In this document: positions 9,189 through 40,304 of the stretch, in pieces | How the letters are laid out: each line of letters starts with the position of its first letter | How positions within the stretch are numbered: position 1 is the first letter of the stretch | IMG/VR virus record: IMGVR_UViG_3300021373_001319 | Coordinates: 1 to 40,304 of that record | Origin: a virus | Reading direction: 5' to 3' (one strand) | DNA length: 40,304 nucleotides | Made by a program: the position numbers and the translations under genes | Notes under the pieces: model-generated | Told to the model about the DNA's origin: nothing | Databases searched by the model: none | What the model saw: the letters and a program-made list of their open reading frames with translations, nothing else

Positions 9189-9192
<4 letters not shown>
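8683..9192 (+). CDS. Hypothetical protein, TTG start, 169 aa
   Basis: The frame has a stop immediately upstream (8680-8682), so TTG at 8683 is the first possible start. It has a strong GAGGGGG at 8670-8676 with 6-base spacing, which supports it over the first ATG at 8722. The protein is mixed alpha/beta with no membrane segment. The C-terminal half ([10 protein letters not shown], then [23 protein letters not shown]) looks like a small alternating alpha/beta fold. I do not recognise the family. It is wedged between structural genes, overlapping 11 bases upstream and 4 bases (ATGA) downstream, so it is probably a minor virion or assembly factor. Confidence 0.72.
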
Positions 9193-15599
<6,407 letters not shown>

Positions 15600-19603: not shown

Positions 19604-22600
19604 ATGGCTTTGCATGAAATATCTCTTAAAGACGGGTCTAAACTACGTGTAGAAGGCCCAGAAAATGCTACTGTGGAACAACTCCTACGCATACACAACG
19701 CCCCTAAACTATCGCCAGAACGCAAATTCGCAGAACAATATAGATCCACATACGAGGGTTACAAACCAGAAAGCGGGATCTTAGAAGACGTAACTAAGGG
19801 ACTCGCCGCGGGAGCAGTGGGTACATATGAGTCCGCCGCACTTGGTGCAGCCGCGGCTCTCGATGAAGAAACAGAGTTAAAAGCCAGAAGTAAAATTAAA
19901 AACGTCGCAGAAGCAATCCGCCCTGACGGGGGCGACCCCGACTCCGTGTCTTACAAACTTGCTTCGGGCATAGGATCTATCTTAGCTTTTGCCCCTACCG
20001 CCGTGTTAGGGCCAGCCGCATTACCCGCCGCGGGCATATTAGGTATTGGCGCAGGTGCAGGGGAAGCAACTGAGCGTGCGCGAGCCGCAGGTGCTACTGA
20101 AGACGAACGCGGTGCTGCTACCTTGCGGGGTGCCGCTATAGGTGCGACCGAGATACTCCCTCTTGGGCGTATATTCAAACAGTTAGAGCTACCTATACTT
20201 AAAGACATGGAGAAGGCGCTCGGCACTGATGTAGTAGAAGGGTTTGGCGACCGTATAAAAAACGCCGCGATTACTGGTGGGGCAGAAGGCGCGCAAGAAG
20301 CGACTGCCGCTGTTTTGCAGAACATGAACGAACGTGGGTATAACCTCGAACAGGAGATACTCGATTCTGGGGTCAGCGAAGAAGCTCTTATCGGCGGCGG
20401 TGCGGGTGCGATACTACAATTCGTTGCTGATCTTGTTGCTCCTAAACGCCGGGGAGCCACCACAGAGGACACTCCACCAGAAGAAACTCCACCAGAAGAA
20501 ACTTTAGCGTTACCTCCACCAACACCTGAACCCCCACAAGTCACACCCGAAGGGCAAGTACTTACTCCAGAACAGGCAGAAGCACGAATCGCTGCCAACG
20601 AACAAGCTCGGCTAGACGCTATGCGTCAACCTGCTGACCAGCCTAAGCTACCCAAACCTTCTGATGCTATACCTGTTACTCCTGAAGGGGAAGTATTGCC
20701 CTCTGCGGAGGCTGATCGTCGGGCGCTAGATGAGGGCAATAAGCAAAGAGAAGAGCGCGACAAAAAAACCGTTGCAGATAAAGCTAGTGCAGCGGCTGTA
20801 GCAGATATGCCCGCGCAAAGCGTGTTAAGTAAGCGTGAGAAAGACGAGGCAAAGCGGATAGAAGACACAGCGCGGGACAAGCGTAAAGACGCCCAACCCG
20901 ATATGTTTTCGGCAGAGTTAGAAGCCGCAGAGACTTTACAGAGGCGCAGTGCTGCTAGTCCTGCCGACGTTATAACAGCGCAAACATTGGATCAGTTGAA
21001 TGTTCCTAAAAGCAGTAAGTTACGTAAAGCAGTTGTAGGTAAGCCGGTCAATTCTCCTGAAGTACAGACCGCTCTCGATGAGGTCAAATTAAAAAACCCC
21101 GTTGCCCGTGAGCGAGTAGATTCCTTACGAACAGAACGCCCATCGGAGAAGGTAACTAAGAAAACTCTAGACGACTTAGGAGTAAACCCCCAAGCTGGCA
21201 TACGTAAAGCAGTTATAGGTAAAGAGTTAGGCGACCCTGAAGTGCGTAAGAAGTTAGTTAGTTTCGCCAACAACCCAGTAGTGCCACGCGAGACGAGACA
21301 AAAAGTAGCGAATTTATTAGAAGGCGTACCACAAGAACAACAAAACCTAACTCCAACTGACAAACAAGGTGCGGCAAATGGAAGAGGACAAGTGGGACAG
21401 GCTACTGGAACTACAGGTAGAGCACGTAGAGCAAGCGTTCCACCAACTGACGGTGGGGTGGAATCGGCCCCAACGACAAGTACCGCCCAGCCTCCAGTAC
21501 CTAAGTCAAAAGGATTGGGAGAAACTAGCGGACTTCCAACTAGCCCTGATAGCGGAGCGTTATTCTCAAAAGTTACATTAGCAGACTCAGTAACTACTCC
21601 AATAGCTCCAGTGGGGGCCATGCCGGCGCAAACTGCTGAGACAGTAGCGCAAGTTAAGAGCGCGCCACTTACTAAACAGACCGCAGAGAAAGCGATTAAA
21701 TCCGCGGCTGAAAAAGCTCCTACTAAGAAACTGGTCTCAGAAGAAACTCCCGCTAAGAAAGCTGTGGTCAAGAAGAAAGTCGTAGCTAAGAAAGCTGTGG
21801 TCAAGAAGAAAGTCGTAGCTAAGAAAGCTGTGGCCAAGAAGAAAGTCGTAGCTAAGAAAGCTGTGGTCTCAGAAGAAACTCCCGCTAAGAAAGCTGTGGT
21901 CAAGAAGAAAGTCGTAGCTAAGAAAGCTGTGGTCTCAGAAGAAACTCCCGCTAAGAAAGCTGTGGTCAAGAAGAAAGTCGTGGGTGAGGACGGTACGTTA
22001 CCCCCAGATATCGGCATATCTACCAAAGCGCAGGATAAGAACCTAGCCCGCAACGAAAAGGGGTACATAAACACGACCCCTAAAAGAAAAAATCCAGTGA
22101 CCGACGCCGACGAAACTCTTGTATACACCGAAGTTGCCGCAAAGGTAGATTCAAACGCAGGGCGTCGCACCAAAAAAGAAAAAATACGAGTGGGGGTGCA
22201 AGCCTATTTTGGTAAGGGGCAGCGTATTGCAGACGCCCTAGCGGATTTGGCGTACGACATAGGGACGGGCACACCAAAATTTAGAGCTAGCCCTGAGTAC
22301 AGTTCTAAGGTAGCGGAACAACTTGCTGGTCGTGGGGGCGATAGTGCTGTAAATACAAACGATTGGGTACTCAATAGTAACTTATCTGCCGAAACGAAAG
22401 AGTATTACGAAGCCCAAGTAGAGTATTACAAGAATTTAGAATCCAGAACGAGAAAAGAGATAACGCAACGAGACCAAGACCTAGTTACCAAACGCGAGAC
22501 GGATGCTGCGGAAGCTGCGCTAATAGACTCGTACGTAGCGCCTAAAGGTAACGAAGGCAGCGTCCGACAAGAAGCAGATATTACCGCGGCTACCACGCAG

Positions 22601-25600
22601 GTACATCCAAGTGTCATGGCTAATCTGCGTGCTGGAGATTTGAAAACCGCTCTGTTCGCCTTAGCAGCTACCACTAACAATCCAAGACTACGTCAAATAG
22701 CTATGGCGCTAGCTCCACTCACAGGGACAACTTCTGTACGGGTTGCAGATGCGGGGGATAAGGTCGCCCAACGCGCTATACGCATGGACGCTAAAAAAGA
22801 TGGGTCGGATCCAAAAAATATAATAGGGCTGTACGTACCTAGCGATTACGGACTTACAAACACCATCATACTAAATGCCGAAAGTGTAGAGGGGGTTACT
22901 CCAGAAGTACTCCTGCACGAAATGACGCACGCTGCCACGCTAGAAGCTATTAACAATAACCCCAATTCTTCGGTTGTTAAACAACTAAACCAATTGTACG
23001 AACTAGCAAAGACGCGATTAGGAACGAATAACGGAACTAAAAACCTAAAAGAGTTTGTCGCAGAGGCGTACGGTAATCCTAAGTTCCGAGCAGAGTTAGC
23101 GGACATATACCCCGATGCACGGGACGTAAGTGTATGGGAACGCTTTAAAAATATAATTACAAACTGGTTACGTTCGTTACCGACCCCAATGAAACGCGCC
23201 AAGATAGACATAGACGCTGTAGCCCGAGGGCAGTCTGTTGCGGATGCCACCGACGTGTTGATCGCCCGTATACTATCTCCCGCACCTAACACTAACACTG
23301 CACCGCTTAATGGTTCACAAGAGTCGGTTAGAAAAGTGCTAAACGATATGGGGGACTCGCAGCAAGAACCCGCGTTTACTGGCAAACAGCGAACTGCTTT
23401 TATCGACAAGGTAATGGACTTCCTTAGTACCGCCCCAGATAAGGCTGCAAGAACGTTATTTGGTTTTGCCCAAGCATGGTCATTAGCAGATATAGCTAAT
23501 CGCATAGACCCTACACTAGGTAAGTTAGGGAAAAAGCTGCACACCGCATTGGACAACGTGCGTGCGGAGTTGCAGAAAGTCGATGATAACCTAAAAGCCA
23601 CGCAACTAAGAGCTGCTCGATGGGCGGAAAATAACCCCGACCAACTGGCTAGGTTCAACAACATAGTGTACAAGAGCACTACTGAGAAAGTTGATCCAAC
23701 AAAGCCAGCGAGTAAGTACAAGAGCGAGCGGCGAGCTAGAATATATAAAGAACTTAGGGAGGAGTGGGAAAAGCTCGACCCTGAAGGGCGACGAGTCTAC
23801 ATAGACATGCGTGACTCCTACAAAGCCCTGTTCGACCGCCTTAAAGCGGTAATACTGACTGAAGCAGGGGACACTGTAGTAGAGAAAGGCGAGGGTAAGG
23901 GGGAGAAGTTAGGGGACATACTTACCAAGAAGTTGTTTGCCAAGTCGGGGTTAGAGCCTTATTTCCCACTACTGCGGGAAGGTGGGTACAAACTTGTGTA
24001 CCGCATAAAGACAGAGGCGCTAGAAGCACAAGGTCTCGATGAAGCGGGCATGGAGCGCGATAAGAAGCCCGTAGAGATGTTTAACACTAAACGCGAGCGG
24101 GACAGACGCATAAAAGAGCTTGAGTCCAATCCTGATATAGAACGTAGGCCGGATGGCTCTTTGTGGATAACAGAGTCGCAAGAATCAGTCCTAGACCTGA
24201 CTAAGGGGGATGTTCTACCACCTACGGGGTTTGTTAGACAGACCTTAGAGGTAATGACTAACGCTAAGGTAGACAAGGAAGTAACCAACCAGATATTAAC
24301 GTTGTATCTCGACGCCTTACCAGAATCAGCAGCGGCTAAATCCTTACAGCAACGGGTGGGAACGCCGGGGTACATCCCTGACGCGCTGTACACGTTTAAC
24401 AGAAAAGGAGCTGACTTGGGAAGGCAGGTTGCTCGCATAGAGACGAACAACAAGCTACGGGGAATTCGTTTAGAGATAGCCGACCACAAGAAGGTCATTG
24501 AAGATCGTATGGACAACGACCCCGAATTTAAGAAGAAAATGAGGCATTTTAGCGCGGTATCGGACGATCTACTTTTACGTGCCGACTACGGCATGAACCC
24601 TGAAACGACGTACCAAAAGTACTCCCAAGGGGCTAACCGAATAGCGTTCATGTTCACCATAGGGCTTAACGCCTCTTCTGCGCTGGTCAACGCCTCGCAG
24701 ATTCCTCTATTTGTGCTCCCGTACTACGGCGCTGAATATGGTTACGGTAAAGCAACCGCGGCTATAAAAGACGCTGCTTCCATAGTGTCCTCGAGCGGCA
24801 CTACTCGTAAGTTGCGTGGGTTGGCCGGCGGCAAGCTGATAGACACTAAGAGTATGCCTAGCTTAGAGAACTACTTCACCCCCGATGCAGACGGGGTTTT
24901 ACAACTCCGCACTGATCTCGATGTAGACGCTAGTGTAAAGTCGCAGTTGCGAGAGTTACAACCATTGGTGCAGTTGGCGCTAGACCGTAATCAGTTAAGT
25001 CAATCTATTATTAGCGACCAATTAGACATAAACCAAGCGGGTAAAAAACGTACTTTGATGGATAAGGTTACGTACTACTCCGCGTTTATGTTCCACAACG
25101 TAGAGCGATACAACAGACAGGTAGCACTCACCTCGGCCTATTTATTAGAAACTAATCGTATGAAAGCCGCCAAGAATGGGGCTGCCTTATCTAGAGCAGA
25201 GTTAGAAGCCGCAGCGGATACCGCAATGCAGCTCACTCAGAAGACTAACGGGGGTTCTGTATCTGAGACCGGCGCACGTTGGGGGCAGGGGGACGTTGGT
25301 AGAGTGGCGCTGATGTACAAACAGTTTGGCCTGAACATGTACTACACCATGCTAACAACTTCTAGGGATGCGTTTAGTGAGATACTCGGCAAGAAAGAAG
25401 GGTACACAGCGTTTAAGCAGATGCTAGGCATACATGCCACGGCCATATTTTTCGCAGGTATTCAGGGTGTACCTCTCTACGGCGCGTTCCGAATGATCGC
25501 TAATCTGTTCCTAGATGACGATGAGGAAGATATAGATACGCTTGTACGGAACTATATCGGTGAAGGGTGGTACAAAGGCGCCGTTACTGCTGCAACAGGG

Positions 25601-26242
25601 GCAGACGTGTCTCAACGCCTAGCCTTAACAGGACTACTTATACAGATGAACCGGTATAACCAAGGTGCATCCCCAGAGGAGAACATCCTGCATTACTTGG
25701 GCGGCCCTGCTTGGAGTACGATGAAAGGGTTCTATCGTGGGGCAGTTGACATACAACGCGGGGAATACGAACGAGGGTTCGAGTCTTTTGTACCTGCCGC
25801 TGTACGTAACGCATACAAAGGATTAAACAGGTACCCTCGGGACGGTGGGGCGCTAACTCGTCGTGGCGACCCAATATTCGATGATATGACTACAGGCGAC
25901 CTAGCCGCACAGATCGTGGGGTTCGCTCCGAAAGAATATACGATGAACCAAGAACGAAACATGGTCAGTAAGCGTATTGAGCGGGCAGTTGTAGAGGAGC
26001 GAAGTGGGTTACTGAAGAAGTACTACGTAGCCCGCCGGATGCGTAACTACGCCGAGGCGCGAGAAATACGTAAGGAAATGCGAGAGTTTAGTCGGCGACA
26101 TCGTGGGGCTAAGATAACCTCTGAGAGTATAGATCGGTCAATGGCACAACACATGCGTACTTCCGACAAGATGTACAACGGAGTTACGATTAACCCGCTA
26201 ATGCGTAAGGCTCTAGAAGAGCAGCGAGACAAATGGGAATAG
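19604..26242 (+). CDS. Giant polyvalent/internal virion protein with zincin motif, 2212 aa
   Basis: ATG at 19604 lies 5 bases after the previous stop. Residues 1-45 form a small beta domain (L-K-D-G-S-K-L-R-V-E-G-P-E-N-A-T) seen at the start of other phage core proteins. A hydrophobic Gly/Ala region (about 60-180) and an acidic Pro-rich linker follow. Next come two copies of a T-L-D-x-L-x-V...R-K-A-V-x-G-K module (about 461-575), eight 11-residue Lys-rich repeats (about 709-796), and a zinc metallopeptidase motif H-E-M-T-H with His1105, Glu1106 and His1109. The C-terminal half is long and helical with Y-F-P-L-L-R-E-G (similar to the PLxRFG motif of giant phage proteins) and hydrophobic stretches near 1685-1720 and 1945-1970. 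This resembles the polyvalent proteins thought to be injected with phage DNA. Whether the protease is active is unknown. Confidence 0.78.
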   Translation: MALHEISLKDGSKLRVEGPENATVEQLLRIHNAPKLSPERKFAEQYRSTYEGYKPESGILEDVTKGLAAGAVGTYESAALGAAAALDEETELKARSKIKNVAEAIRPDGGDPDSVSYKLASGIGSILAFAPTAVLGPAALPAAGILGIGAGAGEATERARAAGATEDERGAATLRGAAIGATEILPLGRIFKQLELPILKDMEKALGTDVVEGFGDRIKNAAITGGAEGAQEATAAVLQNMNERGYNLEQEILDSGVSEEALIGGGAGAILQFVADLVAPKRRGATTEDTPPEETPPEETLALPPPTPEPPQVTPEGQVLTPEQAEARIAANEQARLDAMRQPADQPKLPKPSDAIPVTPEGEVLPSAEADRRALDEGNKQREERDKKTVADKASAAAVADMPAQSVLSKREKDEAKRIEDTARDKRKDAQPDMFSAELEAAETLQRRSAASPADVITAQTLDQLNVPKSSKLRKAVVGKPVNSPEVQTALDEVKLKNPVARERVDSLRTERPSEKVTKKTLDDLGVNPQAGIRKAVIGKELGDPEVRKKLVSFANNPVVPRETRQKVANLLEGVPQEQQNLTPTDKQGAANGRGQVGQATGTTGRARRASVPPTDGGVESAPTTSTAQPPVPKSKGLGETSGLPTSPDSGALFSKVTLADSVTTPIAPVGAMPAQTAETVAQVKSAPLTKQTAEKAIKSAAEKAPTKKLVSEETPAKKAVVKKKVVAKKAVVKKKVVAKKAVAKKKVVAKKAVVSEETPAKKAVVKKKVVAKKAVVSEETPAKKAVVKKKVVGEDGTLPPDIGISTKAQDKNLARNEKGYINTTPKRKNPVTDADETLVYTEVAAKVDSNAGRRTKKEKIRVGVQAYFGKGQRIADALADLAYDIGTGTPKFRASPEYSSKVAEQLAGRGGDSAVNTNDWVLNSNLSAETKEYYEAQVEYYKNLESRTRKEITQRDQDLVTKRETDAAEAALIDSYVAPKGNEGSVRQEADITAATTQVHPSVMANLRAGDLKTALFALAATTNNPRLRQIAMALAPLTGTTSVRVADAGDKVAQRAIRMDAKKDGSDPKNIIGLYVPSDYGLTNTIILNAESVEGVTPEVLLHEMTHAATLEAINNNPNSSVVKQLNQLYELAKTRLGTNNGTKNLKEFVAEAYGNPKFRAELADIYPDARDVSVWERFKNIITNWLRSLPTPMKRAKIDIDAVARGQSVADATDVLIARILSPAPNTNTAPLNGSQESVRKVLNDMGDSQQEPAFTGKQRTAFIDKVMDFLSTAPDKAARTLFGFAQAWSLADIANRIDPTLGKLGKKLHTALDNVRAELQKVDDNLKATQLRAARWAENNPDQLARFNNIVYKSTTEKVDPTKPASKYKSERRARIYKELREEWEKLDPEGRRVYIDMRDSYKALFDRLKAVILTEAGDTVVEKGEGKGEKLGDILTKKLFAKSGLEPYFPLLREGGYKLVYRIKTEALEAQGLDEAGMERDKKPVEMFNTKRERDRRIKELESNPDIERRPDGSLWITESQESVLDLTKGDVLPPTGFVRQTLEVMTNAKVDKEVTNQILTLYLDALPESAAAKSLQQRVGTPGYIPDALYTFNRKGADLGRQVARIETNNKLRGIRLEIADHKKVIEDRMDNDPEFKKKMRHFSAVSDDLLLRADYGMNPETTYQKYSQGANRIAFMFTIGLNASSALVNASQIPLFVLPYYGAEYGYGKATAAIKDAASIVSSSGTTRKLRGLAGGKLIDTKSMPSLENYFTPDADGVLQLRTDLDVDASVKSQLRELQPLVQLALDRNQLSQSIISDQLDINQAGKKRTLMDKVTYYSAFMFHNVERYNRQVALTSAYLLETNRMKAAKNGAALSRAELEAAADTAMQLTQKTNGGSVSETGARWGQGDVGRVALMYKQFGLNMYYTMLTTSRDAFSEILGKKEGYTAFKQMLGIHATAIFFAGIQGVPLYGAFRMIANLFLDDDEEDIDTLVRNYIGEGWYKGAVTAATGADVSQRLALTGLLIQMNRYNQGASPEENILHYLGGPAWSTMKGFYRGAVDIQRGEYERGFESFVPAAVRNAYKGLNRYPRDGGALTRRGDPIFDDMTTGDLAAQIVGFAPKEYTMNQERNMVSKRIERAVVEERSGLLKKYYVARRMRNYAEAREIRKEMREFSRRHRGAKITSESIDRSMAQHMRTSDKMYNGVTINPLMRKALEEQRDKWE
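21728..21991 (+). repeat. Eight 33-bp tandem repeats encoding a Lys-rich H1-like segment
   Basis: Eight in-frame units of 33 bp encode 11 residues each. Two kinds alternate: A-V-V-K-K-K-V-V-A-K-K (21761, 21794, 21827, 21893 and a diverged last one at 21959) and x-[VL]-V-S-E-E-T-P-A-K-K (21728, 21860, 21926). The DNA is nearly identical between units, so they arose recently by tandem and block duplication. The composition resembles bacterial and eukaryotic histone H1-type tails, which bind DNA through lysines. Confidence 0.93.
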
Positions 26243-34500: not shown

Positions 34501-34637
34501 GATTTATCTCCTTTTGTTTCATCGTACTTGCGGTCTGCGTCAATTTCTTCTTGGCACGTTACGCATGTTAGTGGGTTCGGCATAGGGTCTAGTGAGACCA
34601 GATCCCCACAGTGTTGGCAGTCAAAGTGATCTTCCAT
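34497..34637 (-). CDS. Zinc-ribbon mini-protein, 46 aa
   Basis: I read this gene directly: ATG at 34637 shares a base with the polymerase stop (TAATG), and its TGA overlaps the next ATG (ATGA at 34500). The protein has F-D-C-Q-H-C-G and L-T-C-V-T-C-Q, two CxxC knuckles 14 residues apart, which fits a zinc ribbon, then a charged tail ending K-G-D-K-S. Perfect stop/start coupling on both sides is strong evidence that it is expressed. Such tiny ribbons often bind nucleic acid or protein partners. A role with the polymerase is inferred from position. Confidence 0.72.
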   Translation of the reverse strand: MEDHFDCQHCGDLVSLDPMPNPLTCVTCQEEIDADRKYDETKGDKS

Positions 34638-36460
34638 TATTCGCAATCTCCATAAGCTCTAGCCGCACCGCTCTCACATTCTAACGGCAACCCTTCACAC
34701 CATGCAGGTACATGACGCATACACTGCTCCACATACGCTTGCCCCTCGGACAACTCGTCGTCAGGTACGGCAACGATAAGACTATCGTGTACTGTCATAA
34801 GTACTCGGTACCGCTTCTCGATAAGTAAAAACTGCTCGCCGATAATAACGCGTGCAAGTGCTTGGCAGATGTTCTCTGTCATCGAGCCACCATAGATGCG
34901 CGCTCGGCCTTTACGTGTTTTATAACTGAACTCCTTACCCTTCTCGCCTTGCTCGTAGTCCAGTTCGTCGTACCGTATAGCAAGACCGTTGGGTAACATG
35001 ACATTAGTCCCGTCTACGGTAATGAGGTTGTTCTTACCTATGGCGCAAGGCTCCCGATTAAACATTTTCACTAACATGTTCTGGCAGTCACGCCAAAACT
35101 GTACGATCTTCCAATTCTCCTCACGATAGATTTTTATAGTGCGTTGTGCTTCTGGTAAGTCTATGACAACTCCTGTCTGTGCGCGTAGTTGTTCTTTAAA
35201 GCGTGGCGCTCCCATACCATACCCCGCGCCCAGTATCGTAGTCTTGCCGACGAAACGCTGCTCCTTGGTAACGTCTTTCTCGTCCGCCGCGTATATCTTG
35301 GTGGACATCTTTTTATATACGTCTTTCTTATCACGGAACGCTTGGACTAAATCTTCTTGCCCTGCTAACCACGCCAACACTCGCGCCTCTATCTGCGACG
35401 AGTCACAGTCAACTAATGTGTATCCTTTGGGAGCGAGTATACCTTTCTTGAGTTTCTTGCCGTCCTTACCACGACTCGGTAAGTTCTGTAGGTTTATCTT
35501 ATCATCACCACCCCACCGCCCAGTATGTGCGGCGTAGTACTTAATAGGTACAGGAAGTAGTCCTCGTTTGGATATACCGATAAACCTCTCGGTACGAGTT
35601 TCTTCTAACGTAGACTTAGTACCCAGCCTTGCAGCGACTAACGCTTGTACTTGTGGGTTAGGGTGTTCGGCTAAGGCAAGAAACCCTTTATCGGTTTTCG
35701 CAAACGCGAACGTTTCTTTACCCGTACTAGGGCTAATCTTTAACGGCGGGGCTACGCCCTGCTCGGCCAACAATGCAGCAAACTTAGGGTTACTCATAAG
35801 TTCTTTCTTGTCAGTGGCGCAGTTCTGTAGCAGTTCTTCTTTGCGAGTCTTAACGTCCTGCAAGTGCAGGTTAAGCATAGTGCCGTCAAGTTCTAGTACT
35901 GGCTCGACAAACATACGCAGGGTAGCGTGTATAAGCCTTAGCTCAGACTTGGGGAAATCTTTGCCCATGAGTCTAAACAAATCAAAACATATCTCAACGT
36001 CATCTACGCAGTAGTCACCGTATGCAGATAGTTCTTCTACGGTAAAATCTTCTCGGTGTTTTCCCTTGGCGTCCGCAACGGCTGTACCCTTGGGGCGTAA
36101 CCTATACTTCGTAGCAAGTGCCGCGAGAGACCCACCAACTTCCACCCCATGAATAGCACGGGCAATACACAAAGTGCAGGAATAGCGGCGAGGATAGATA
36201 TTGTAATGCCAACCAAGAACAGCGCCATCGAACATATAATTGTGAGCGACAACCAAACTATTTTGCCAATCGAAACTATCGAGGAATTGTTTTGTCTCTT
36301 CATAAGTACCACTCGCCCATTGTGTTGGTTGGTTGTTTACTTTCACGCCTACGCCGATAACTTCAAACCGTTCGTCGCGTATGTATTCTTCCGTGGTCAT
36401 CTTAAATAACGAGAAGTCCTTATCGTAGTACGTCTCGAAGTCTAGGGTTATCAAGTCCAT
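34637..36460 (-). CDS. DNA polymerase I (family A) with 3'-5' exonuclease, 607 aa
   Basis: ATG at 36460 overlaps the preceding TGA (TGATG); GTG at 36463 is an alternative. The 3'-5' exonuclease has L-D-F-E-T (Asp7, Glu9), N-Y-M-F-D-G (Asp78) and Y-C-V-D-D (Tyr150, Asp154). The polymerase has T-G-R-W and N-L-Q-N-L-P, motif A V-D-C-D-S-S-Q-I-E-A-R (Asp353), motif B K-T-T-I-L-G-A-G-Y-G and motif C V-H-D-S-L (His558, Asp559). There is no 5'-3' exonuclease domain, as usual for phage enzymes. Leu410 lies at the position of E. coli Phe762. It copies the phage genome with the primase-helicase and SSB of the same operon. Length is typical for short phage PolA. Confidence 0.95.
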   Translation of the reverse strand: MDLITLDFETYYDKDFSLFKMTTEEYIRDERFEVIGVGVKVNNQPTQWASGTYEETKQFLDSFDWQNSLVVAHNYMFDGAVLGWHYNIYPRRYSCTLCIARAIHGVEVGGSLAALATKYRLRPKGTAVADAKGKHREDFTVEELSAYGDYCVDDVEICFDLFRLMGKDFPKSELRLIHATLRMFVEPVLELDGTMLNLHLQDVKTRKEELLQNCATDKKELMSNPKFAALLAEQGVAPPLKISPSTGKETFAFAKTDKGFLALAEHPNPQVQALVAARLGTKSTLEETRTERFIGISKRGLLPVPIKYYAAHTGRWGGDDKINLQNLPSRGKDGKKLKKGILAPKGYTLVDCDSSQIEARVLAWLAGQEDLVQAFRDKKDVYKKMSTKIYAADEKDVTKEQRFVGKTTILGAGYGMGAPRFKEQLRAQTGVVIDLPEAQRTIKIYREENWKIVQFWRDCQNMLVKMFNREPCAIGKNNLITVDGTNVMLPNGLAIRYDELDYEQGEKGKEFSYKTRKGRARIYGGSMTENICQALARVIIGEQFLLIEKRYRVLMTVHDSLIVAVPDDELSEGQAYVEQCMRHVPAWCEGLPLECESGAARAYGDCE

Positions 36461-36819
36461 CACAAGACCCCCCGCGTTTTGGCAGCAGCTTCGCCACTTA
36501 ATGCAAAATACGCAGCACCGTCTTCGTAGTTATCTTGTCTATATCCGCCTTGTTGGCTACGTACAGCCTTCAACAAGGTCATGAATAACCACCCACGTTC
36601 TTCTGTATCTATGCGACCGTCGCCAGTAACAGCGTTGAATGCAGCCACTGTAGCAGCCATAGAACGTTCACCTTCAGGTTGATCGTACGTATCCGCACGA
36701 TCTTGCATATGCGCTGCGGCTGCCGAAAGAAATTCGTGTGCCTGCGGGTTTTTTGAGACCTGTTCCTCGCGTCTAGTAACGACGCGATCAGGTATTGTTT
36801 TGCCTGTAGTAGCTTTCAT
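36460..36819 (-). CDS. DUF6378-like phage protein, 119 aa
   Basis: ATG at 36819 has GGGAG upstream. Its TGA overlaps the polymerase start. The conserved core reads A-A-A-H-M-Q-D-R-A-D-T-Y-D-Q-P-E-G-E-R-S-M, then A-T-V-A-A-F-N-A-V-T-G, G-W-L-F-M-T-L-L-K-A-V-R-S-Q and N-Y-E-D-G-A-A-Y. This matches DUF6378 from memory. It is helical and cytoplasmic. The pattern of Asp/Glu residues in helices recalls all-alpha NTP pyrophosphohydrolase folds, but the link is speculative. It sits directly before the polymerase, so a role in nucleotide supply or replication is plausible but unproven. Confidence 0.75.
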   Translation of the reverse strand: MKATTGKTIPDRVVTRREEQVSKNPQAHEFLSAAAAHMQDRADTYDQPEGERSMAATVAAFNAVTGDGRIDTEERGWLFMTLLKAVRSQQGGYRQDNYEDGAAYFALSGEAAAKTRGVL

Positions 36820-38734: not shown

Positions 38735-38748
38735 GGGTACATGTACCC
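38735..38748. promoter_or_regulatory. Perfect 14-bp palindrome upstream of the 305-aa gene
   Basis: GGGTACATGTACCC lies in the 46-base gap (38702-38747) before the 305-residue gene and overlaps the stop of the upstream zinc-finger gene by one base. A symmetric site of this size suits a dimeric DNA-binding protein (operator). As RNA it can only make a short, loopless stem. No confident -10/-35 promoter was identified nearby. Confidence 0.4.
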
Positions 38749-38927
38749 TATTTTTTGTAGTGTTTGGCTACCAAGTTCTTGGTGTACCTTGCACGTTCTG
38801 CTAAAGCGCACTTGTCATGCGCGGTAAACAACTTAGTGTAGTCACTAGGCTTACCGCCTAGGTTGCGAGCACGTTCGGCTGCGCTAGGAACTAACACTAT
38901 CTCTGTGTTGCATATCCTACACTTCAT
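38748..38927 (-). CDS. Small zinc-finger protein, 59 aa
   Basis: I read this gene directly: ATG at 38927 overlaps the preceding stop by 11 bases with GAGGAGG upstream, ending in TAG at 38748. The protein begins M-K-C-R-I-C-N (CxxC at residues 3 and 6) and has T-A-H-D-K-C (His37, Cys40), a likely CxxC/HxxC zinc site. A basic helical tail follows (A-E-R-A-R-Y-T-K-N-L-V-A-K-H-Y-K-K). Such a small Cys-His protein could bind DNA, RNA or a host protein. Its place in the csrA cluster suggests a regulatory or takeover role, by inference only. Confidence 0.7.
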   Translation of the reverse strand: MKCRICNTEIVLVPSAAERARNLGGKPSDYTKLFTAHDKCALAERARYTKNLVAKHYKK

Positions 38928-39186
38928 CGTCTTCCTCCTCTGGTTGCCAGTCCGCAGATACTAGGCGTAAGCCGCCGTACATGCCGCCGGTTTTCTTAGT
39001 GGTGAGCATAGCGTCAACTTCTTCTTGTGACACTGCGTCTAGGCGCTGTAACAATACCGTTAGCCTACCTAACACTTCCTCGTAGGTGTACGGAGCGACC
39101 ATGTTGTTGTCCTCGTCGAACAACTCGTCGGGGTGTTTATCCGACACCAGACTACTCACGCACATCACGAACTCTCGATCATCCAT
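38917..39186 (-). CDS. Acidic hypothetical protein, 89 aa
   Basis: I chose ATG at 39186 (GGAGGAG upstream, 8-base overlap with the previous gene) over an in-frame start at 39255. The protein is helical and ends in a very acidic tail (P-E-E-E-D-D-E-V). The middle has Y-T-Y-E-E-V-L-G-R-L-T-V-L-L-Q-R-L-D, a likely amphipathic helix, and G-G-M-Y-G-G-L-R-L-V-S-A-D. No family was recognised. The ribosome site and start share a 15-base sequence with the gene just upstream (see findings). Confidence 0.68.
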   Translation of the reverse strand: MDDREFVMCVSSLVSDKHPDELFDEDNNMVAPYTYEEVLGRLTVLLQRLDAVSQEEVDAMLTTKKTGGMYGGLRLVSADWQPEEEDDEV

Positions 39187-39331
39187 TGTCTTGCTCCTCC
39201 CTACGTCGCTGCTTGTTGGCCGCTTTCTTCGCGGCTTTGCCAGTAGTACCGGCATGGTTTTTGTTGTGCGCGTAACGTCCGTTAAGGTCTAGGCGAAACT
39301 TTGCATCGGTGCTGCGGTAAGTTCTACTCAT
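39179..39331 (-). CDS. Small basic protein, 50 aa
   Basis: I chose ATG at 39331 (CAGGAG upstream, 8-base overlap with csrA); the much longer upstream frame to 39451 overlaps csrA entirely. The protein is strongly basic: M-S-R-T-Y-R-S-T-D-A-K-F-R at the start, G-R-Y-A-H-N-K-N-H in the middle, then K-A-A-K-K-A-A-N-K-Q-R-R-R. It looks like a nucleic-acid-binding peptide. Its coupling to csrA suggests joint expression. No family is known to me. Confidence 0.62.
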   Translation of the reverse strand: MSRTYRSTDAKFRLDLNGRYAHNKNHAGTTGKAAKKAANKQRRREEQDNG

Positions 39332-39518
39332 TGTCTTGCTCCTGTATCTTGTTGTGGATTTCTTCGCGGTCAATACGAACGTTCGGCGGTGCGGCAATAC
39401 CAATACGTACACGTGGTACGCCTGAGTAATGGTTGTTATCCTCGATAGCAAGTACCGTCACACGTATGTTGCCGTTGATTACAAGCGTCTCGCCTTTCTT
39501 TCTAGTTAGAACTAACAT
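39324..39518 (-). CDS. csrA: Carbon storage regulator CsrA homologue, 64 aa
   Basis: I chose ATG at 39518, with GAGGAG upstream; an in-frame GTG at 39569 would add unrelated residues. The protein begins M-L-V-L-T-R-K-K-G-E-T-L-V-I and ends with V-R-I-D-R-E-E-I-H-N-K-I-Q, the hallmarks of CsrA/RsmA. Leu4, Arg6 and Arg51 (E. coli Arg44 equivalent) lie at RNA-binding positions. A 7-residue insertion (E-D-N-N-H-Y-S-G-V-P-R region, residues 26-36) lengthens the loop before the R-I-G strand. CsrA dimers bind GGA motifs near ribosome sites and repress or activate translation. A phage copy could reprogram host mRNAs or time phage translation. It is followed by small genes in tight coupling. Confidence 0.95.
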   Translation of the reverse strand: MLVLTRKKGETLVINGNIRVTVLAIEDNNHYSGVPRVRIGIAAPPNVRIDREEIHNKIQEQDNE

Positions 39519-39565: not shown

Positions 39566-40304
39566 TCACATGTTCCCAGACTTGATGTGCAGTACCTTAC
39601 CTACGGTAGGTTGTGCACGTTTGTTGTCGAGTATGCACCACAGCAATGGTGCGTCCCACGTACCCCAGTCACCACCTAGATACCCGTCAGTGATGTTGAT
39701 GATGGCGGTAGCCTTGATAGACTTGTCAGCCATGTACTCGTTGACACACCGCACGTTGGTGCCGCCACCGTCACGGGGCTTGGTACTCTTTGCGATCTTG
39801 TGTATCTCGTCACGCTCGTACACCTCGTCGCCTACTACCTCACTACCCCAGTACAGTATGCGTACCCGTTCAGGGTTAGTTGTCTCGCATACATGTACCA
39901 ACTCGGTGAGTATAGTGCTCCATGTACGTGGGTTACATGTTGAGTACGATGTATCAGCAAGTACTACTAGCTCGTCAATACTCTCGGACTCACTACTCGG
40001 CATATAAATACCCATGCCTAAGTACTTACGGTTAGGTCGTGCCCACGTAGCGTAGTCGTTACCCTTACACGTTGATGCCACGAACTCACGTAACACCTCA
40101 CGCCAATCTACCTGCGGCTTGAGTAGTTCTTCGATAGCACGGTTGCCACCACCCTTGCCCATCTTACTTGCAGCAAGTGCTCCCTTGCGTAGTGTCTCGT
40201 CTATCTCGATCTCCAACTCACGCTTGGTATCATCGTCAAGTTCTTTTGCCTCGTCGAACTTGCGGTGGTCGTCCCACCCGCCGTGACCAGTAGTACCGTC
40301 GCCA
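39566..40304 (-). CDS. VWA-like domain protein (5' end outside window)
   Basis: The frame stays open to the window edge, so the true start lies beyond 40304. The TTG at 40216 is only the first internal start. The visible protein first has a Gly/His/Asp-rich stretch (T-T-G-H-G-G-W-D-D-H), then helical sequence with P-Q-V-D-W-R-E-V-L-R-E-F-V. A VWA-like domain follows with a MIDAS motif: V-L-A-D-T-S-Y-S (Asp-x-Ser-x-Ser), G-G-G-T-N-V and I-T-D-G-Y. It resembles the VWA-like metallopeptidase family (DUF2201), whose zincin half would lie upstream, outside the window. Such proteins often work with a MoxR-type ATPase. It ends 47 bases before csrA. Confidence 0.8.
   Translation of the reverse strand, partial: GDGTTGHGGWDDHRKFDEAKELDDDTKRELEIEIDETLRKGALAASKMGKGGGNRAIEELLKPQVDWREVLREFVASTCKGNDYATWARPNRKYLGMGIYMPSSESESIDELVVLADTSYSTCNPRTWSTILTELVHVCETTNPERVRILYWGSEVVGDEVYERDEIHKIAKSTKPRDGGGTNVRCVNEYMADKSIKATAIINITDGYLGGDWGTWDAPLLWCILDNKRAQPTVGKVLHIKSGNM

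Follow-up and report, generated by a model that had tools for sequence, protein, structure and literature searches.

A phage-borne CsrA with a rare seven-residue enlargement of the β3-β4 loop

Genes encoding CsrA are already known from phages (PMC7366521, PMC8450108), and the locus described here adds a new example in which one loop of the protein is enlarged to a rare extent. This raises the question of whether a CsrA with seven extra residues still works as its relatives do, and what these residues might change. The gene lies in a stretch of viral DNA of 40,304 nucleotides (positions 1 to 40,304 of IMG/VR record IMGVR_UViG_3300021373_001319), hereafter referred to as the window. We consider it probable, at roughly three chances in four, that it encodes a working phage CsrA acting as the usual dimer on GGA hairpins, probably those of host mRNAs, with a loop that spares GGA recognition.

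The csrA gene is a complete open reading frame of 64 codons at positions 39324-39518 on the minus strand, with MLVLTRKKGETLVINGNIRVTVLAIEDNNHYSGVPRVRIGIAAPPNVRIDREEIHNKIQEQDNE as its product. The preliminary description had given the same interval, and a complete gene is indeed found there; the strand, however, is corrected to minus, as the plus-strand reading is interrupted by stops. The ATG start codon is preceded by GAGGAG and the stop codon overlaps the start of the next gene as ATGAGTAG, both features being what a genuine gene within a translated row should show. Its identification as a clear CsrA is borne out by a match to PF02599 over model positions 1-53 of 53 (71.8 bits, curated cut-off 27; E = 4.4e-20), by a match to phrog_9500, 'CsrA-like regulator' (8e-17), by PDB sequence matches that are CsrA, RsmA and RsmE chains, and by the retained RNA-binding residues discussed below. 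It is the single CsrA in the whole virus record, the ends of which are not closed.

The gene is embedded in an operon-like row. A co-directional DUF2201/VWA-domain gene (39566-40303, minus strand; PF13203 at 1e-10, PF09967 at 6e-7), whose 5' end lies outside the window, ends 47 bases upstream, which contradicts the earlier placement of csrA at the head of a cluster of tiny genes. The PHROGs label of this upstream family, 'HNH endonuclease' (phrog_1314), does not fit the Pfam match. Three small genes follow csrA on the minus strand: one encoding a basic protein of 50 aa, the start of which overlaps the csrA stop (39179-39331; no family match), one encoding an acidic protein of 89 aa (38917-39186; no significant family match), both being open reading frames with a ribosome site, and one encoding a 59-aa protein matching phrog_8738, of unknown function (38748-38927; 4.5e-22). 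A 305-aa gene comes next. On the plus strand, the window additionally encodes a virion-type protein of 2136 aa (9189-15599) that resembles the family of the N4 virion RNA polymerase only weakly (phrog_2206, 3.8e-6, 284 residues), and a protein of 2212 aa (19604-26242) with LPD39, a DarB-like antirestriction C-terminal match and an HC2-like basic stretch. The csrA of the E. coli phage tested in PMC11879866 likewise lies near a gene for a polyvalent protein of roughly 2200 aa.

The strongest effects in mutants of E. coli and C. jejuni CsrA were located at R44, V42, L2, I47, V40, L4, R6, R7, A36 and E46 (PMC6692469). These positions are kept in the phage protein, the equivalents being, in the same order, R51, I49, L2, I54, V47, L4, R6, K7, A43 and E53. 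The conserved RNA-binding set L2, L4, R6, V/I42, R44 and I47 is represented by L2, L4, R6, I49, R51 and I54, and the R6-E46 salt bridge by R6-E53. Canonical H43, on the other hand, is replaced by D50 and the calculated charge is approximately neutral (-0.3 at pH 7), a combination that could weaken RNA binding.

Two copies of the protein are predicted to form a domain-swapped dimer, in which edges composed of β1 of one chain and β5 of the other would clamp AnGGA hairpins near ribosome sites. Such clamping would block translation or alter mRNA stability during infection, with host mRNAs as the most likely targets. Phage leaders were considered as the main targets and rejected: among the phage's own 30 leaders, GGA was observed in a hairpin loop in 3 against 4.8 expected from shuffles, and this lack of an excess weakly favours host targets. 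Action of phage CsrA on the host is also proposed in PMC8450108, and to this extent the earlier suggestion of a host-takeover regulator stands, although the gene context invoked for it does not. It is also suggested there that CsrA homologues of phages may suppress CRISPR-Cas. In two further reports, knockdown of a csrA homologue in another phage resulted in smaller plaques (PMC11879866), and one phage CsrA is possibly packaged in the virion (PMC9144972).

Alignments with PDB chains and with the family profile confirm a net gain of seven residues relative to canonical CsrA. The gain falls after canonical position 28 and is best placed at N29-H-Y-S-G-V-P35 (39414-39434, minus strand), with an uncertainty of one or two residues. 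The insertion had been assigned to the connection between the second and third strands; it sits between β3 and β4 instead. An AlphaFold2 monomer model (mean pLDDT 92.4; 59-sequence alignment) has strands at residues 18-26 and 36-42, coil at 27-35 between them and a C-terminal helix at 52-63. β1 and β5 were left unassigned by DSSP because, in the monomer, these edge strands lack the other subunit with which they pair. The nearest folds retrieved with Foldseek are CsrA, RsmA and RsmE (the ten matches with E ≤ 0.001 have a query TM of 0.73-0.82), and superposition on CsrA/RsmE chains gives an rmsd of 1.1-2.3. The fold, as predicted, is that of an ordinary CsrA with a longer β3-β4 turn.

The β3-β4 loop is part of the RNA-binding surface (PMC6692469), and in RsmE both Gln29 and Arg31 touch the RNA stem (PMC4005645). 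Their equivalents in the phage protein, R36 and R38 (canonical 29 and 31), immediately follow the insertion. Judged from the alignment, the enlargement thus sits where an effect could matter, and this adjacency means that RNA choice might be changed. As the turn flanks these stem-contact residues, GGA recognition and dimerisation should be left alone; the seven extra residues would lengthen the hairpin turn and at most modify contacts with the stem or its flanks.

Judged by its family A DNA polymerase (34637-36463, minus strand; phrog_17 at 4.5e-83), the window phage groups with L262 and L263 in a clade of uncultivated phages, as a tree of 81 relatives contains a five-row clade including these two with support of 100/99. 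Polymerase identity to the window is 68% for L262, 66% for L263 and 64% for L362, and spans 64-69% in the group made up of L362 with L262, L263, L404 and L406. In L362, csrA is immediately preceded by the same VWA gene and followed by a homologue of the 305-aa gene seen in the window, the order being that of the window minus the three small genes. This syntenic csrA carries no insertion, so that the insertion in the window is derived. L262 and L263 have csrA between the polymerase and an exonuclease gene, with a loop of +1, and the csrA of L404 and L406 is of this type as well, its loop likewise being longer by one residue. At the protein level, the window CsrA is 61% identical to that of an unrelated virus without the insertion (L001), compared with 48% for L262/L263 and 44% for L362. 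Carriage of csrA is thus recurrent among these phages, involves two sites and was possibly accompanied by replacement.

Among VWA loci with enough downstream sequence, csrA was found only in L362 (1/31), and a DNA-level search for the csrA-VWA region in named phages gave no match. The VWA gene of L362, a DUF2201 metallopeptidase/VWA-like gene similar to the one at 39566-40303 (minus strand) in the window, occupies L362:2278-4714 (plus strand). It is preceded by a 364-aa gene with a P-loop-like motif, GHTGTGKT, and no Pfam match, so a MoxR-like ATPase/VWA pair is possible in these phages. As for the source of the 21 inserted bases, local duplication or slippage was rejected, there being no repeat of at least 8 bases within csrA, while no match elsewhere in the window exceeds 11 bases.

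The rarity of the insertion in bacteria was assessed from PF02599 match coordinates in three phyla, comprising 110 matches in Pseudomonadota (82 of 120 genomes), 37 in Planctomycetota (16 of 40) and 74 in Bacillota (70 of 101). None of these 221 matches reaches +7 in the β3-β4 loop, and the insertion is thus not common in bacterial CsrA. Among the longest matches read, this loop is extended by at most +4 (two Bacillota), while others have +3 or +4 in the β2-β3 region instead; judged by size only, two matches of +16 in Pseudomonadota could be RsmN. A variable-gap pattern, validated on three known positives, detected no loops 3-13 residues longer among genes beginning ATGC in 399 Pseudomonadota genomes. 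Likewise, a search with the L257 protein revealed no insertion in any plasmid csrA match listed (at most 165 bases for 62 residues). The peptides LAIEDNNH and YSGVPRVR had no second carrier in an IMG/VR pattern search, nor among the best 80 of 325 genome matches when one genome per GTDB species was searched, although close duplicates of a record may be left out of such results.

Comparison across phage CsrAs, as the preliminary description had proposed, gave a divided answer: extended loops recur in viruses, but are absent from the named-phage matches. In GenBank, the spans of the named-phage CsrA matches hold too few codons for the insertion, and three phage CsrAs, named or from GenBank, that were aligned residue by residue have a canonical or nearly canonical β3-β4 connection, two of them with a β2-β3 insertion instead. 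The IMG/VR matches listed, by contrast, include β3-β4 extensions of +7 (L257), +6 (L192), +5 (L233, L177), +4 (L201, L139, L248, L147/L215, L217, L239/L254/L256) and +3 (L124, L099), indicating that loop growth recurs in viruses; the exact +7 is shared with one other virus among them, L257, and with none of the sampled bacteria. Both IMG/VR scans were designed for long loops and so demonstrate recurrence rather than frequency, which makes viral and cellular loop frequencies not comparable. Insertions of 3-9 residues between β2 and β3, the RsmN site, are carried by L236, L164, L013 and others, and in this loop-selected sample they are commoner than β3-β4 insertions among the viral CsrAs listed.

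For the loop itself, we rate the chances as even that neutral drift accounts for it, that is, that a β-turn in a fast-evolving phage protein tolerates extra residues with no change. The turn-prone composition of the insert, the reduced confidence of the model over this loop (blocks 85-87), the lack of a strong duplication trace or repeat and the free variation of loop length among viral CsrAs are all consistent with drift, whereas the proximity of the loop to RNA and its nearly fixed length in bacteria argue against it. Less probable is a selected loop, in which extra contacts with the stem or its flanks would give the phage protein an RNA set different from that of host CsrA, for example by avoiding host sponge RNAs. 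This would agree with a loop adjoining stem-contacting positions, with Arg in place of Gln at position 29, and with extensions of +3 to +7 in several viral CsrAs, including the exact +7 in the unrelated L257, where bacteria show at most +4 in 221 matches. However, the inserted N, H, Y, S, G, V and P are neutral turn formers that do not resemble RNA-binding residues, no clear sequence is common to the extended viral loops, the insert is carried by one sequence only, and the viral examples come from a scan that picked long loops. Selection is no more likely than drift in a turn that tolerates change. More doubtful still is the broader proposal that viral CsrAs have repeatedly enlarged this loop in a way that changes the RNAs clamped, so that host targets or sponge RNAs are not competed for.

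A rearranged dimer caused by the insertion is highly improbable: RsmN does combine a 16-residue insertion with such a dimer (PMC3791407), but its insert is a helix between β2 and β3 and it has no C-terminal helix, and we rejected the analogy since the phage insert is non-helical, lies in the β3-β4 loop and leaves the C-terminal helix present in the model. More generally, the domain-swap hinges of CsrA are the β1-2 and β4-5 loops (PMC3791407), while β3 and β4 are neighbours in one sheet, so that the change in dimerisation once suggested for the insertion is unlikely. Escape from FliW-type antagonists, also suggested then, has an equally slight chance, because the residues bound by FliW are V51 and N55 in the C-terminal helix (PMC7829508) and not those of the loop. 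Nothing speaks for it directly; the protein keeps I58, has D62 in place of the FliW-binding Asn and ends two residues later with no C-terminal extension, but the C-terminus would then be the source of any insensitivity, and this feature is missing from CsrAs of non-FliW hosts too.

Since β3-β4 length is almost fixed in bacteria, viral CsrAs with a long turn are natural probes of whether RNA choice is set by stem contacts. An active loop would show by what means a phage sets its own copy of a global regulator apart from that of the host. If it is inert, this is one more phage csrA, the value of which lies mainly in mapping recurrent two-site carriage in an uncultivated phage group.

The protein resembles earlier CsrAs of phages and mobile elements (PMC7366521, PMC8450108, PMC9144972, PMC12038007, PMC11879866) in being encoded by a small phage-borne gene in a phage operon; the available text of these five reports makes no mention of an enlarged β3-β4 loop in phage CsrA. 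With RsmN/RsmF of Pseudomonas aeruginosa (PMC3791407) it has in common that a CsrA relative is enlarged in a strand-connecting loop, the connection, the helical insert and the dimer of RsmN being different. The csrA genes of L362 and of L262/L263/L404/L406 occur in the same phage group, in L362 even with an unchanged position after the VWA gene, yet differ in the loop (no insertion in L362, +1 in L262/L263) and, for the L262 type, in location. L257 also has +7 in the β3-β4 loop (SNTDNNKTYGSGTVRLG), but the two proteins are 47% identical over aligned residues and their genes have other surroundings, so the two insertions apparently arose independently. The L257 gene (L257:2289-2558, plus strand), with the insertion DNNKTYGSG, encodes a long acidic C-terminal tail. 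Finally, the phage protein is like CsrA, RsmA and RsmE (PF02599) in its whole-length match, its RNA-binding and salt-bridge residues and its predicted fold of β1-β5 plus a C-terminal helix, and is set apart from them by the seven additional residues in the β3-β4 loop, the change of Gln29 to Arg and that of His43 to Asp.
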